A DNA stretch of 64,000 nt from Natronolimnohabitans innermongolicus JCM 12255 (GTDB lineage: Archaea; Halobacteriota; Halobacteria; Halobacteriales; Natrialbaceae), in contig NZ_AOHZ01000011.1 of the NCBI RefSeq assembly GCF_000337215.1, positions 1-64,000 on the forward strand, read 5' to 3'. The notes under the pieces are model-generated. The model saw only the letters and a program-made list of their open reading frames with translations, was not told the origin of the DNA and ran no database searches. The position numbers were made by a program, and so were the translations under genes. Of the stretch, positions 5,312-55,008 are shown one piece after another (position 1 is the stretch's first letter; every line of letters begins with the position of its first letter).

Positions 5312-5662
5312 TCAGAACCGATTGTTGTCGTTTCGGAGTTGCTGCTGGGCGGTAGTCTCGGTGACCGCCGTTCGATCCGTCGAACCGCTCGCGGCACCCA
5401 TACTCGAGGCGGCAATCGGGAGGACGCCGTTGGGAGAGCGATAGTGCGCGATCAGCGACCACATAACGGCAGTGCCGAACAGTCCGGCCGCTGAAAACGT
5501 CATTCCCAGCGAGTAAAACGTCGCGGTGTAGACGACAGCGAGGCCAAACTGGGGGAGACTCGTCCGAAGTGGAATCTGTGCGTTTAGATTCCTGAGCGCG
5601 GGGAACAACGCGATGATCGTGAGCAAACTACAGGCGAGAAAGACGAGATCTTGCCAGGTCAT
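5312..5662 (-). CDS. Small membrane protein of unknown function
   Basis: A 116-residue protein with three hydrophobic stretches: residues about 5-25 (LVFLACSLLTIIALFPAL), 40-60 (FGLAVVYTATFYSLGMTF) and 62-80 (AGLFGTAVMWSLIAHY), then a polar tail. I recall similar three-span proteins in other haloarchaea but no function. ATG at 5662 gives a clean membrane-protein start. The upstream neighbour is pckA in the same direction, separated by about 200 bp, so a shared transcript is uncertain. Confidence 0.7.
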   Translation of the reverse strand: MTWQDLVFLACSLLTIIALFPALRNLNAQIPLRTSLPQFGLAVVYTATFYSLGMTFSAAGLFGTAVMWSLIAHYRSPNGVLPIAASSMGAASGSTDRTAVTETTAQQQLRNDNNRF

Positions 5663-5863
5663 ACATTGTAAACTCGGCACTGAGTAAATAGTATTTCGGT
5701 CGATTCACCGACGCTTCGCGTCGATTTCATCGGCGCATGGGAACGGTTGCCGCGATCGATGCAAAACGACGGTGCAAAACAACGGGATACCGCAGTCTTC
5801 TCGGCGCGCTGTGGCAGTCCGAAACCGATTCAACGTGGGACTCGCGCGATTCTCGAGGCCGTC

Positions 5864-9630: not shown

Positions 9631-9813
9631 ACGGGCGGCTTGGGAGTATCCGGATATAACCGCCCCGGTTCGGTCTTCGAAAGTGAGAATCGTCCGCGAC
9701 CGCAGCGAACCGAACGGCACGCCGCGTACTGACGGCGCGCGAAACCGCGTCTCGGCGAACGCGTGTCGACGAAACGAAAACACGTAAGGTCACTCCCCGT
9801 CGACTCCGCGAGT

Positions 9814-10548
9814 ATGCTCCCCCGGTTCGTCGGCCGACTGGGAATCGCCGACGCGGTCACCATCGCCAACGCGTCGCTGGGGTTCGTCGCCGTCGTCACC
9901 GCGTTCGTCGATATCGAACTCGCCGCCCGACTCATCCTGCTGGCGGCGATCGCCGACGGCCTCGACGGGATCCTCGCCCGCCGATACGGCGGCACCGACG
10001 CTGGCCCCTATCTCGACTCGCTCGCCGACGTCGCCTCCTTTGCGATCGCCCCCGCGGTCCTCGCGTTCGTCGTCGTCACCGACGGCCCCAACGGTCTCGA
10101 GATCGGCTACGACGCCGTCACCGCCGAGTTGGTCCTCGTGACGGCCATTTGCGCGCTGTTCGTCGCGATGGCCGTCACGCGACTGGGCATGTACACGGCC
10201 TACGACGTCGAGGGCGATTACACCGAGGGAATACAGACGACGCTCGCGGCGACGATCCTCGGGGCGGCGATTCTCGCCGGCGAAACCAACCCGTGGCTCG
10301 TCCTCGCGATAACGGGCGCGTTCTGTTACCTGATGGTCTCGCGCATCGAGTATCCCGACTTGCTCGTCCGCGACGCCGGCATCATGGGGGTCGTCCACGC
10401 GCTCGCGATCCTGGTCCCCAACGTCGCCGGTCGAACCTTCCCGTACGCACTCCTGACGCTCGGGATCGCGTACATGCTTCTCAGCCCGTGGGTCTACTGG
10501 GGCGAACGCGAACGGCGCACAGATGCCGAAGCGCATGGAAACGCTTAG
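9814..10548 (+). CDS. pssA: Archaetidylserine synthase-like CDP-alcohol phosphatidyltransferase
   Basis: A 244-residue membrane enzyme with the CDP-alcohol phosphotransferase motif in ADGLDGILARRYGGTD, continuing to PYLDSLAD (residues about 47-70). The Asp residues bind metal and the CDP-lipid. Seven or eight transmembrane helices follow. The length and the motif close to the N-terminus match archaeal CDP-archaeol:serine synthases, which make archaetidylserine. The ATG at 9814 was chosen over an upstream start that adds a non-conserved basic extension. No decarboxylase gene is adjacent, so serine specificity rests on family resemblance. Confidence 0.82.
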   Translation: MLPRFVGRLGIADAVTIANASLGFVAVVTAFVDIELAARLILLAAIADGLDGILARRYGGTDAGPYLDSLADVASFAIAPAVLAFVVVTDGPNGLEIGYDAVTAELVLVTAICALFVAMAVTRLGMYTAYDVEGDYTEGIQTTLAATILGAAILAGETNPWLVLAITGAFCYLMVSRIEYPDLLVRDAGIMGVVHALAILVPNVAGRTFPYALLTLGIAYMLLSPWVYWGERERRTDAEAHGNA

Positions 10549-50277: not shown

Positions 50278-50832
50278 GTGGTGTACCGCCCGCCAGTGCT
50301 CGAACTCGCAACCGCTGTCGACCCGGCATCGTTCGGCCTGCTGACAGCGGTCGCACAGACTGATCCCGGCGTGGATATCGACGTCAGTACCGGCGATGGC
50401 CTTTTCGGCGGTGCTATCGGCTCGTTCGCGACCGTGCTGGTCGTCGGTGCCATCATGATCGCGCTCGCGCCCGACTACGTCGAGCGGCTGATGGCGGCTA
50501 TCGCTGCCGAGCCCGTCGAGTCTTTCGGTTACGGGATCGTCTCGCTGTTCGGCCTCGGCCTCTTGATCCTCGCGCTCGTCATCACGATCGTCGGCATTCT
50601 GGTCGTCCTACCGCTGATGTTGCTGGCGTACCTGTTGTGGGCGATCGGCGCTGCAATCGCGTACCTCGCGATCGCCGACCGGCTGATCGGTCGGACGGGC
50701 AGCTGGCTCCCGGCACTGCTCGTCGCCGCCACGATCAGCGGCGCGCTCGCGCTGACCGGGATCGGCGGCCTGCTCTCGCTGTGTATCGGCGCCGCGGGCT
50801 TCGGTGCGGTGATCCGGGACTACGCCGGCTGA
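50278..50832 (+). CDS. Four-span membrane protein of unknown function
   Basis: A 184-residue protein with hydrophobic segments at about 48-68 (SFATVLVVGAIMIALAP), 85-125 (YGIVSLFGLGLLILALVITI and LVVLPLMLLAYLLWAIG), and 140-180. Gly-rich, with the charged segment DYVERLMAAIAAEPVESFGY between the first two. It resembles C-terminal membrane regions of haloarchaeal bactofilin-associated proteins, but no bactofilin gene is adjacent. It starts with GTG. An 82-bp hairpin element begins at its stop. Confidence 0.65.
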   Translation: MVYRPPVLELATAVDPASFGLLTAVAQTDPGVDIDVSTGDGLFGGAIGSFATVLVVGAIMIALAPDYVERLMAAIAAEPVESFGYGIVSLFGLGLLILALVITIVGILVVLPLMLLAYLLWAIGAAIAYLAIADRLIGRTGSWLPALLVAATISGALALTGIGGLLSLCIGAAGFGAVIRDYAG

Positions 50833-50913
50833 TACGGATTGCTGTCCCGATGTATCGGCGCAACCGCCGCCCGGGTCGCGGGTGCGCCGGAACTGACGGA
50901 CAGCAAACCGTAT
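50832..50913. repeat. 82-bp hairpin element, copy 1
   Basis: Outer arms ATACGGATTGCTGTCC and GGACAGCAAACCGTAT pair except for one A-A mismatch after CGG. An inner stem CGGCGCAACC / GGGTGCGCCG follows. It starts at the stop codon of the preceding gene. A second 82-bp copy lies at 54265-54346 with compensating changes in the stem. Confidence 0.75.
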
Positions 50914-50945
50914 GAGAGTCTCGACTCGGACAACCGGTAACACAG

Positions 50946-51245
50946 CTAGAAAAACGGCAGATACCGCCCCACTCGAGCCCGTAGCGACGACTCGCGACGG
51001 ATCCGAAGCGTCGTCCCGTCGGCCTCGAAGACGGCGTCGCTCGCCGGAATACGCTCGCCGTCGGGGAGGCAGATCTCCTGTTCCCGTTCCGGAACGGTCC
51101 CGCCGGAGCTGGCGCCGAACAGCCACGGGGAGGGTCCCGCCGGCTCCGAAATCGGTTCGTCGTACTCGAGTTCGTACACCGTCTCGCCGTCGACCGTGCG
51201 TTTTCGCCAGTCGACGAGACTGCGGTCGTCGTTCGTGCCGATCAT
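50946..51245 (-). CDS. Haloarchaeal protein of unknown function
   Basis: A 99-residue protein: KRTVDGETVYELEYDEPISE, EICLPDGERIPASDAVFEAD and a basic C-terminus RARVGRYLPFF. Codon use is chromosomal. It looks like a small beta-rich protein. It is convergent with the membrane-protein gene at 50278, with the hairpin element between them, and divergent-in-context from truD, which lies downstream of it on the same strand order. No family recognised. Confidence 0.55.
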   Translation of the reverse strand: MIGTNDDRSLVDWRKRTVDGETVYELEYDEPISEPAGPSPWLFGASSGGTVPEREQEICLPDGERIPASDAVFEADGTTLRIRRESSLRARVGRYLPFF

Positions 51246-51348
51246 CGTTGTGGACGAGTCGTCGTGCGTCCATTCATCGCGGCCCCCATTCGACAGCCCC
51301 TATTCGACGAGCTATTGTGAACGTATCGCACGCGAAACGCATACCTCG

Positions 51349-52701
51349 TTAGCCAAGGTCGACCGGATCGACTTTCAGATACTCTCGCAGGAGCACCGTC
51401 GCGTACGACCCCTTCGGAAGCGCGAACTCGAGCGTCAACGGCTCCGTCTCGAGGCCGAGATGCGTCCGGACGAGGATCGCGCGTCGCGTGCCGGTCGAGT
51501 GGAACTCGCCGGGCAGGTCGAAGTCCGACTGCTCGAGTCCCAGTTCCTCGAGTACTTCGCGCTCGATCTCGCCCTGTTCGCCGTCGGCGAGATCGGTCTC
51601 GGTGCCGACGAGCGGCGCGGTGACGAACGCCCGGCCGCGCTCGCAGTGGCGCCGGACCGACCGCACCCGGCGCTCGTCGACCCGCTGGAGACGGTCGGTG
51701 TCGGGCAACTCGAGGTCGCCCGGTGCGTCGGTGTCGGAAAAACAGGCGACGTCGCCCTCGACGGGTTCGTCGAACGGCAGCCCCCGTTCGAGGCGCCGGG
51801 AGAGCATCAGGTTGAACGCGTACGACTGGGCGGCGTGGACGAACAGCCGCTGGAGGTTCGAGGGGAGTCGCTCGAGCGCGGCCCGGAAGTCCGCGGGCTC
51901 GGGCTCGCCGTCGACTTCGGCCATCCCGTGACAGAGCGAGCGCTCGTACCGGAGCCGGTTGGGGAAACGCTCGATGGCTTCCTGCCAGTCTTCGGTCTCC
52001 TCGACGAACTCGCGGGCGTCCTGCGTGCTCTCGGGTTCCGCGTCGGTCGGGTTGCCGAGGTAGGCCATCACCGCGCCCTTCCAGTCGCCGCGGACGATCT
52101 CGAGGCCGACCTCGTGAGTGACCGGGCGACGGCTGCCGAAGCGCTGCTGACCGAAGAAGTTGGGGACGCCGACGGAGACTCCATCCGAGTCCGAATCGGA
52201 GTCGAGCCCGCCGAACGCGTGCAGTTCGTCCGTGATCTCGCGGGCGTTTTCGGGCGCGTCGGGGTCGCTGACGACCAGTTCGAACTCGTTGCCCGCCAGA
52301 TCGCCGAACTCGAGGGATCGGCCGGCGCGACCGAGCACCTCGAGGTCGGCGCCGTCGACGTCCGGCAGGTCTCCGGGATCGGCGCCGTAGACCGAGAACA
52401 GCTGCGTCGTCACCGCGTACTTGTCCTTCGTACCGGCCCAGTTGACCCGCTCTCGAGAGCAGCCGAGCGCGTCCGAAAGCCGACTCGCGAAGTCGTTCGT
52501 GTCCCAGCCCGACAGCGTCGCCCGAAAGACGAGATGTGGGTAGGCGTCCGTGGTCGCGTCGACGGGTTCGGTGTCGAAGCGCTCGAGTTCGCGCACGCGG
52601 AAGTGCTCGTCGTCCTCGCGCAGGTGGCCGCCGACGCCGTCGGCGTCGGTGACGTAGTGGTCCATGCCGACGGCCTGCTCGGTGGGGTGTGCCGGGCGCA
52701 T
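51349..52701 (-). CDS. truD: tRNA pseudouridine synthase TruD
   Basis: A 450-residue TruD-family pseudouridine synthase, which in archaea modifies tRNA position 13 and is linked to position 35 in some substrates. The catalytic Asp lies in [14 protein letters not shown] near residue 90. The family signature [20 protein letters not shown] is near 190, and the insertion TRUD domain follows. The C-terminus [16 protein letters not shown] is standard. The start [17 protein letters not shown] at 52701 was chosen; longer starts add Arg-rich non-conserved sequence. pth2 is nearby upstream, as in other haloarchaea. Confidence 0.95.
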
Positions 52702-52915
52702 GTAGATACCGGCGGTTGGACCGCCGGGAATAAATCGGTTCGTTCTCGCGGGCGACCGGGCGACTCGAGGCTGGTGCGACCGAGAGACGAGAGGGACGCA
52801 GACGCGACGGAGGGGCGAACGCGACACAGACGCCACTCGAGCGAGCCCCGCGGCACGCAGGCGCATGTGTCGAAGTTACGGTGATTCAGACCGTTTGTCC
52901 AGTCGGTGTCAGTCC

Positions 52916-53155
52916 ATGTGCGCGCGCTTCACGGACGACGACGAGGGAAAACAGGTCGTCAACGCCAACGGCGAGCGGATCGGTATCGTTGAATCGGTCG
53001 ATGCGGGGACGCCCTACGTCAACCCCAACCCCGACGTGACGGATAGTATCAAAACGGCGCTCGGCTGGGGAGATGCGGACGAGGAGACGTACGTCCTCGA
53101 TACCGACGACGTCGAGGCGGTGACGGATCGGGAGATTCGGGTTCGGCGGCGCTGA
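52916..53155 (+). CDS. PRC-barrel-like protein
   Basis: A 79-residue protein: DEGKQVVNANGERIGIVESV, then GTPYVNPNPDVTDSIKTALG and a C-terminal VEAVTDREIRVRR. The strand pattern matches the PRC-barrel fold common in haloarchaea. It is a clear paralogue of the 96-residue protein at 53458-53748 (shared order: EGK, GERIGIV, YVNPNP/YVDPEP, DREIRV/DSELRV). ATG at 52916. Confidence 0.75.
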   Translation: MCARFTDDDEGKQVVNANGERIGIVESVDAGTPYVNPNPDVTDSIKTALGWGDADEETYVLDTDDVEAVTDREIRVRRR

Positions 53156-53226
53156 TCGTCGGCTTCGGATCGTCCGAGCGGAACCGCTACCGAAATCCGT
53201 ATTGAGCATCGTGCGAACGGTCAGGT

Positions 53227-53469
53227 ATGGACGTCACAGCGATCCGACAGGCCATCGGTCTCGCGATCGGCTTCACCGTCGGTCTCGCGCTCGTCGCGCT
53301 CGCTACCGGCGACCTGCCGGACTCGAGTTTCCTCTTCGGACTCCTCCTCGCGCCGCTCGTGGTGCTCGCGCTCTCGCGTATCGACGGGCCGCTGAACGAA
53401 CGGGCTGGAAAAGTCGGTGCGATCGTCGTCTCGGCCGTTCTCGTCGGCGCGGCGCTCTTACTCGTCTGA
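53227..53469 (+). CDS. Small two- or three-span membrane protein
   Basis: An 80-residue protein with hydrophobic stretches AIGLAIGFTVGLALVALATG, FLFGLLLAPLVVLALSRI and VGAIVVSAVLVGAALLLV. It lies between the two PRC-barrel paralogues; its last 12 bases overlap the end of the second, on the opposite strand. Function unknown. Confidence 0.65.
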   Translation: MDVTAIRQAIGLAIGFTVGLALVALATGDLPDSSFLFGLLLAPLVVLALSRIDGPLNERAGKVGAIVVSAVLVGAALLLV

Positions 53470-53748
53470 GCGGTCCTCGCTTTCGTCCTCGTCGGCCTCG
53501 CTGCTCAGGTCGGCGTCGACGCGCAGTTCCGAATCCGTCACCGTCACGACGTTCTCGCTCGGAATCTCGAGGTCGTCTTCGCCCGCGCTGCCGCGGCCGA
53601 GGCTCTGGAGCCACGCGTTTGTGAGACTCGGCTCGGGGTCAACGTACGCGACCTGCTCGATGGGATCGATTTCGGTGACGATTCCGATCTGTTCGCCGCG
53701 GACGTCCATCAGAAACTTCCCTTCGTCGGTCTCGGAGAGTACGGTCAT
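53458..53748 (-). CDS. PRC-barrel-like protein
   Basis: A 96-residue protein: DEGKFLMDVRGEQIGIVTEI, QVAYVDPEPSLTNAWLQSLG and VVTVTDSELRV, followed by an acidic Ser/Glu/Asp tail. Paralogue of the protein at 52916 on the opposite strand. PRC-barrel proteins often bind RNA or regulatory partners. ATG at 53748. Confidence 0.75.
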   Translation of the reverse strand: MTVLSETDEGKFLMDVRGEQIGIVTEIDPIEQVAYVDPEPSLTNAWLQSLGRGSAGEDDLEIPSENVVTVTDSELRVDADLSSEADEDESEDRSDE

Positions 53749-53845
53749 TGTATTCTACTGTAGGATATCACAGACAAATAACTGTTTGCGATACTCCGGC
53801 GATCCGGGACCGTCGGCTGACTGTCGACGTTCGGCCCGGTACGTC

Positions 53846-54184
53846 TCAGAACAGGGAGAGTTCGCCCGTTACGCTGTCCACCCGGTCGTCGCTCGCTGGT
53901 CCGACAGCCAGCGCGGTAACCGTGCCGGGCTCGAGTTGCGTGTGACCGGCGTCTTTGACGACCGCGTTCGGGATTCCCTTGCTGTCGGCGATCGCCGAGA
54001 GTTCGTGGAGTTGGCGCTCGCTCTCACCTTTGAGGACGACCTTCTTCTGGCCGCCCTGTTTCCACTGGCTGCGGAGCTGGTCGTCGGCCTTCTCGTAGGC
54101 CGATAGCGAGGCGTGTGCGACCTGTGCGGCGAGTTTCCCCTGTCCCATTCCGACGTCGGTTCGCGCGACGATGGCCTGTTTCAT
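53846..54184 (-). CDS. pth2: Peptidyl-tRNA hydrolase Pth2
   Basis: A 112-residue archaeal/eukaryotic-type peptidyl-tRNA hydrolase, releasing tRNA from stalled peptidyl-tRNA. Diagnostic segments: [20 protein letters not shown] near 11-30, [16 protein letters not shown] near 47-62 and [20 protein letters not shown] near 75-94. The length is normal. ATG at 54184. Close to truD, a common haloarchaeal neighbourhood. Confidence 0.97.
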
Positions 54185-54264
54185 ACGCCGACACTCGAGT
54201 CCGATCGATAAAGCGGCGGCGATCCGTCAGAGCGAGTTACACAGCCGGTGTTCGCCGCCGTCTG

Positions 54265-54346
54265 ATACGGACTGCTGTAAGTCATTGACGGAGCGACCGC
54301 AGGAGGGCGCGTGGTCGCTCCGGTAAATCGTTACAGCAGACCGTAT
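54265..54346. repeat. 82-bp hairpin element, copy 2
   Basis: Outer arms ATACGGACTGCTGTAA and TTACAGCAGACCGTAT pair except for one A-A mismatch in the same place as copy 1. The inner stem GGAGCGACC / GGTCGCTCC is perfect but different in sequence from copy 1. It lies between pth2 and the DsbA-like gene. Confidence 0.75.
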
Positions 54347-54405
54347 GAATCGGCCCGCGTTCCGCGGACGATACGTATTTGCATCGGGCGTCGTTAGCCG
54401 ACGGT

Positions 54406-55008
54406 ATGCGATACACGCGACGCGCGGTACTGGGAACGGCGGCAGTCGCCGGACTCGGTACCGTCGCTGGCTGTCTTGGCAGTGGCGATCCCCCGGAGGC
54501 CCCGGTCGCCGGCGATCCGGACGCGGACGTGACTGTCACCGTCTACGAAGACTTCTCCTGTCCGTACTGTCGTGACTTTAAACTCGACATCGTGCCGCAA
54601 CTCGAGGAGGCGTACCTCGAACCGGAGACGATCCGCTACGAACACCGGAACTTTCCGGTTCCGGTCGATAACTGGTCGCTGCCGGTCGCCAACGCGGCCC
54701 GCGACGTCTTCGAAGAGTCGGGTAGCGACGACTTCTGGACGTTCACCACCGAGATCTACGAACACCTCGATGCCTACTCCTACGACGTAATCGAGCAGGT
54801 GGCCGACGACGTCGGCGCGGACGGCTCGGCAGTTCGCGAGGCCGCCGAAGACGAGGCACACGAGTCGACGATCGAAGACGACCGGTCCTACGCGGAGTCG
54901 GAAGGCGTCGAGGGGACACCGACCGTTTTCGTCGACGGCGAACAGGTGACCCTCCAGGAACTCTCCTTCGAGCAGGTCGCCGCGCCGATCGAGGACGCCC
55001 TCGAGTAA
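54406..55008 (+). CDS. DsbA-like thiol-disulfide lipoprotein
   Basis: A 200-residue exported thioredoxin-fold protein. The N-terminus has a Tat-type RRAVLG and a lipobox VAGC (Cys at about 22). The active site is SCPYC near 49, with the cis-Pro in EGTPTVFVDG near 180 and the helical insertion in between, as in DsbA/Frn2 proteins. It probably oxidises or isomerises disulfides outside the membrane. ATG at 54406; a short MITE-like hairpin lies upstream. Confidence 0.92.
   Translation: MRYTRRAVLGTAAVAGLGTVAGCLGSGDPPEAPVAGDPDADVTVTVYEDFSCPYCRDFKLDIVPQLEEAYLEPETIRYEHRNFPVPVDNWSLPVANAARDVFEESGSDDFWTFTTEIYEHLDAYSYDVIEQVADDVGADGSAVREAAEDEAHESTIEDDRSYAESEGVEGTPTVFVDGEQVTLQELSFEQVAAPIEDALE

Follow-up and report, generated by a model that had tools for sequence, protein, structure and literature searches.

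The 64,000-nucleotide stretch of DNA analysed here (the window; positions 1 to 64,000 of contig NZ_AOHZ01000011.1 of Natronolimnohabitans innermongolicus JCM 12255) contains two copies of an 80-bp palindrome that is, in all probability, a non-autonomous transposable element of haloarchaea. It resembles the miniature inverted-repeat transposable elements (MITEs) and inserts at GAC|TSA|GTC. This reading follows from the direct repeats that flank the copies, from the empty sites found in relatives and from the many copies present in this and other genomes.

Target duplications, empty sites and copy number

The element runs from TACGG to CCGTA and is a nearly perfect palindrome, in which two nearly symmetrical ends, each consisting of TACGGWYTGCTGT and an inner arm, meet head to head. 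The original prediction had described two 82-bp hairpins with ATACGG and CCGTAT ends. Both are present and fold beyond shuffled sequences (z -6.12 for copy 1 and -8.10 for copy 2, with 0 of 200 shuffles as good in each case), but the unit itself is 80 bp: TGA flanks each copy on both sides, so the outermost A and T of the 82-bp stretch belong to the flanks. The fold of the window copies is stable on both strands. Within the window, a covariance model found these two copies and no others (E 5e-23 and 2.5e-22), both of them being members of the set from which the model was built.

Flanks were compared among 182 copies. Matching TSA direct repeats were found at 148 of them (TGA/TGA at 74 and TCA/TCA at 74) and inverted flanks at 2, while the copy-rich genome G080 also has TAA/TAA and TTA/TTA pairs; all four central bases occur. 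The flanking repeats thus represent a duplicated 3-bp target, TNA, which is TGA or TCA in nearly all cases. The target consensus of intergenic insertions, GAC|TSA|GTC, is palindromic and its central 3 bp are those duplicated. Relative to the TGA strand the element is found in both orientations (47 versus 62).

Related species lack the element at both window sites. Orthologous sites of copy 1 are empty, with the flanks joined, in L162 (...CTGAGAG) and L165 (...CTGAGTC), and copy 2 is absent from the syntenic pth2-dsbA interval (L301) of the same-genus genome G098. Copies are also nested within one another in G080 (L257 ~5581-5741 and L259 ~9725-9886), with TGA and TTA duplications; the site of insertion is the base of the right-hand arm, close to the internal loop described below. 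The same genome holds head-to-tail stacked pairs that share one TGA or TCA (L241 ~1413, L243 ~1950, L246 ~1992 and L256 ~6277), as if the duplication made by the first copy had been the target of the second.

Further copies, which the original prediction had proposed to collect, are numerous. A strict 28-base end pattern matched 6 times in the genome of N. innermongolicus and 0 times in the reversed control, and a looser reading of 46 loci in this genome gave 44 or more copies in which both ends can be recognised. The covariance model matched in 96 of the 125 genomes of the same family (Natrialbaceae), per-genome copy counts in this survey being lower bounds (at least 37) where 37 was reached. 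In the phylum sample, 20 of 295 genomes had matches, all within the window's own order. Several genomes of the family hold many equally scoring copies, groups of near-identical copies occur within one genome, and G080 contains 187 exact 14-bp ends. The named records that carry the element are haloarchaea, including plasmids of Natrinema, Natronorubrum, Natribaculum and Natrialba. No full element was found in the viral contigs searched, where the single-end matches are attributable to chance. The element family is undescribed in the open-access literature searched; subscription journals and ISfinder lie outside that scope, and an earlier description there is possible.

Copy 1 was inserted exactly on a TGA stop codon, which it duplicated, and this position recurs. 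In 98 of 148 copies the duplicated TGA is the in-frame end of an open frame of 100 codons or more; the corresponding counts for the other two frames are 53 and 19. In the deposited annotation of six plasmid copies inspected, a coding sequence ends exactly on the duplicated TGA in five and no such coding sequence is annotated at the sixth. According to a simple gene prediction, stop codons are the site of 90 of the 165 non-coding insertions, where 24% would be expected from the target motif, and 13 of 178 insertions fall in coding sequence, where 60% would be expected without selection; these figures come from heuristic gene calls, with the background taken from loci gathered around the copies. 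The depletion of coding insertions is clear. The excess at stop codons may stem from selection or from targeting. Where the element lands on a TGA stop, the target duplication restores the codon, which would explain why such insertions are tolerated. Copy 2 is located between the starts of two divergent genes, one pth2-like (start 54184, minus strand) and one DsbA-like (ATG near 54407, plus strand). The earlier statement that both copies lie beside gene ends therefore applies to copy 1 (TGA stop of the gene at 50278-50832) and not to copy 2. Coordinates are given in Table 1.

Table 1. Positions in the window of the two element copies, their target duplications and their internal loops
Feature	Position	Strand	Basis
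Copy 1 of the 80-bp element, GTCA arm on the minus strand	50833..50912	-	Ends and fold; minus-strand covariance-model score of 88.4 bits; empty orthologous sites L162 and L165
Copy 1, left TGA target duplication (stop codon of gene 50278-50832)	50830..50832	+	Sequence; end of the open reading frame
Copy 1, right TGA target duplication	50913..50915	+	Sequence
Copy 1, internal loop, one side (CGAT on plus)	50848..50851	.	Column counts; element positions 16-19 read on plus, equal to 62-65 in the orientation of the model
Copy 1, internal loop, other side (TGAC on plus, GTCA on minus)	50894..50897	.	Element positions 62-65 on the plus strand
Copy 2 of the 80-bp element, GTCA arm on the plus strand	54266..54345	+	Ends and fold; covariance model 86.1 bits; absent from the syntenic interval of G098 (L301)
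Copy 2, left TGA target duplication (no stop codon)	54263..54265	+	Sequence; adjoining genes diverge from here
Copy 2, right TGA target duplication	54346..54348	+	Sequence
Copy 2, internal loop, GTCA side	54281..54284	.	Element positions 16-19
Copy 2, internal loop, ATCG side	54327..54330	.	Element positions 62-65

Pairing between the two arms

The two window copies had been reported to differ at stem positions that nevertheless stay paired, and this was confirmed. The covariation test suggested at that time, performed on 47 diverse copies, gave a score of 0.220 against 0.095 (standard deviation 0.007) in shuffles, with 91.6% of the cells paired against 83.7% (standard deviation 0.5); slid partners reached at most 43.5% paired and a covariation of 0.074. 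Shuffles ignore relatedness, so these comparisons are not to be read as probabilities. The covariation is genuine.

Column statistics were obtained from 124 distinct 80-bp copies, the observed Watson-Crick pairs being compared with the expectation from independent columns. Columns 7, 14, 15, 20, 26, 27, 28 and 30 are paired far above this expectation (88 Watson-Crick pairs versus 37 expected at column 27, and 114 versus 60 at column 30). No matching between the two sides is seen at column 6 (47 observed versus 51 expected), where T/T (31), A/T (26), A/A (23) and T/A (20) are all common. This column corresponds to the A-A mismatch after CGG that was thought to be conserved; it carries A or T on each side independently, and the mismatch is not a fixed feature. 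What does not pair, and is conserved, is a 4x4 internal loop formed by positions 16-19 (GTCA) and 62-65 (A, T/C, C/A, G), in which the pair 16:65 is Watson-Crick in 0 of the 124 copies. The outermost 13 bp are nearly invariant save for columns 6, 7 and 9, and different types of inner stem stand side by side in one genome. The commonest subfamily of the N. innermongolicus genome (L205, L206, L211, L213, L214, L215, L224, L226 and L227) has TTACTGT for TTGCTGT at one end only, so that its outer stem has a fixed A-C mismatch (9:72).

Pairing is kept differently in close and in distant copies. Close copies (1-8 differences) show 120 one-sided versus 10 two-sided changes at paired columns; 93 of the 120 leave one of the compared copies with a non-standard pair, and the 10 two-sided changes are a small excess over the ~1.4 found with slid partners. 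Distant copies (15-22 differences) show 96 two-sided changes, 72 of them from Watson-Crick to Watson-Crick, compared with 43 for slid partners. In the small sample of three orthologous copy pairs, divergence is 1-6%, about like that of the flanks, and no conserved copies with compensatory changes at orthologous genes were seen in these pairs. Resident copies thus look unconstrained, and the transposing lineage stays paired. Because the rate of change in resident copies is about that of their flanks, pairing would be maintained in the lineage that transposes, or by copying between the arms, and not as a host RNA function. The matched or folded form may be needed for mobilisation, or it may be restored by arm-to-arm copying, and the data fit both.

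The proposal that the folded form is under selection accordingly stands as far as pairing that covaries beyond shuffles in a mobile element is concerned, and not for a role as host RNA. Unpaired changes in other copies, held in the original prediction to speak against such selection, are found among young copies and not across the deep lineage, as expected if pairing matters for mobilisation and not for the host.

Two copies from one genome of Natrialba taiwanensis (L069:4279 and L082:5968) become identical over 79 bp when the inner 31 bp of one is inverted. Both orientations of this core are found across the set (61 and 25). Such a flip between otherwise identical copies suggests an interaction of the arms at the DNA level. 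Wholesale conversion of the arms is disfavoured by the internal loop, which is retained throughout.

Mobilising enzyme and explanations of the fold

The 3-bp duplication points to a DDE enzyme. A transposase acting in trans, probably a DDE enzyme of the cut-and-paste kind, would recognise both ends, and matched arms would be needed, or regenerated, during mobilisation. The search for a mobilising transposase, also advised in the original prediction, yielded none. In ~1.6 Mb of locus sequence (whole genomes were not scanned) there was no inverted pair of ends enclosing a gene and no full-length autonomous element, and none of the gene families recurring beside copies is transposase-like. DDE_Tnp_4 (PF13359) is absent from 32 genomes. 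DDE_Tnp_1 (PF01609) is present in many of the genomes, with none in G011, and the DDE_Tnp_1 elements that were compared as possible parents (G080, G034, G122 and G030) have ends unlike TACGG. Y1_Tnp genes also occur in many of these genomes; they are missing from the copy-rich G098, G040 and G011 and are found in the copy-free G003, G019, G030 and G033, so Y1_Tnp was rejected as mobiliser. Two candidates for an autonomous partner were discarded. A lone left end (L199:3019-3034) is a truncated copy on the TGA stop of a ROK-like kinase gene, and a 1.7-kb pair of ends in G080 consists of separate short copies.

Several of these observations weigh against a MITE-like element. Neither an autonomous element sharing these ends nor a transposase whose presence follows the copies was found, G011 has at least 37 copies and neither DDE_Tnp_1 nor Y1_Tnp, and a plain MITE would not usually show covariation as strong as that of the inner arms. 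In G011 the mobiliser would have been lost or would belong to another family.

The paired arms can be explained in several ways. One possibility, which we hold tentatively and which is a sharper form of the transposable-element reading, is that the enzyme recognises the folded DNA, as a cruciform or a single-stranded hairpin, and that transposition selects complementary arms and an open loop. Columns 15, 20, 27, 28 and 30 vary freely and covary strongly, a single genome holds different inner stems, the non-pairing state of the 4x4 loop is fixed, and pairing is preserved between distant copies and not between close ones. Less easily accommodated are the lack of pairing at column 6 and the A-C mismatch at 9:72 in many copies of the N. 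innermongolicus subfamily, and arm-to-arm copying could give the same pattern. The full proposal, in which the enzyme reads the folded 80-bp palindrome by its paired arms and fixed loop rather than by arm sequence, makes the 3-bp duplication and is steered to stop codons, seems to us improbable.

It is rather doubtful that the transposase binds each end as double-stranded DNA, the ends following a shifting specificity and the fold being a by-product. The near-invariance of the outermost 13 bp outside columns 6, 7 and 9 does resemble a transposase end, and the free choice of A or T on each side of column 6 would fit; the permissive inner columns, however, should then drift independently, yet they covary, and several types of inner stem exist within one genome. 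We consider it equally doubtful that template switching or recombination between the arms keeps them alike (quasipalindrome correction), in which case covariation would need no selection. The inverted core of L069 and L082, the presence of both core orientations and the small two-sided excess between close copies speak for it, whereas the persistence of the loop and the predominance of one-sided changes between close copies speak against it.

A structured RNA or 3'-untranslated-region element kept by the host, for instance a processing or termination hairpin after genes, is very unlikely: about half of the non-coding insertions do lie directly after stop codons and the fold is stable on both strands, but copies point either way with respect to the gene, resident copies lose pairs and diverge as their flanks do, copy 2 occupies a divergent promoter region, the window gave no Rfam match at the gathering score, and copies are absent from related species. 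Movement as single-stranded DNA by a Y1 (IS200/RAYT) transposase, as for elements of the REP (repetitive extragenic palindromic) or PATE type, is just as improbable; the hairpin with its conserved irregularity, the high copy number and the Y1 genes of many of these genomes would suit it, but this IS200/REP-type route, a form of the single-stranded transposition originally proposed, is unsupported because of the 3-bp target duplications, with all four central bases, and because Y1 genes do not track the element. The earlier suggestion of transposition was thus right in kind, and that of an RNA is unlikely.

Relation to known elements

The element has the features by which MITEs are recognised: it is short and non-coding, its terminal repeats are inverted, its target is duplicated, its copies are dispersed and its hairpin is stable. 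It differs from MITEs in being almost wholly palindromic over 80 bp, in having a GC-rich inner stem, arms that covary and an internal loop that is fixed, and in its preference for stop codons; no parent element was found in the sequence surveyed. Bacterial REP elements are not known to make target duplications, unlike the present element with its duplication of 3 bp, and Y1 genes do not track its copies. REP elements are associated with Y1 transposases (RAYT) and are similar to it as high-copy, extragenic, imperfect palindromes (PMC2817692).

Among haloarchaeal elements, the SMRs of Haloquadratum walsbyi are ~80-110 bp long and have inverted terminal repeats unrelated to known transposons, with no target duplication (PMC3119063). 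The element shares with them the haloarchaeal host, the size, the inverted repeats, the lack of a known enzyme and insertion into other mobile elements; unlike them it duplicates TNA and favours stop codons, a distinction drawn from the description of the SMRs and not from a sequence comparison. Haloarchaeal PATEs have neither terminal inverted repeats nor target duplications, and their palindromes are near-terminal (PMC3119063). Palindromes in haloarchaeal mobile DNA are common to PATEs, IS605-type elements and the present one, in which, unlike the others, the palindrome is the whole element and a target duplication is made (PMC3119063). A 3-bp TNA duplication inside a C-TNA-G target is also known from NuwaII, an IS5-related PHIS transposon of eukaryotes that encodes a DDE transposase and has C|TNA|G targets (PMC4482050). 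No DDE transposase is tied to the present element, and we take the likeness as a parallel, not as membership.

The haloarchaea thus appear to harbour a widespread and unusually small hairpin-shaped mobile element with an apparent preference for stop codons. With recent copies abundant and no enzyme recognised, the search for its mobiliser is a concrete and testable question. The element further indicates that covariation, usually taken as evidence of structured RNA, can also develop in mobile DNA in which selection on structure is not apparent in the resident copies.

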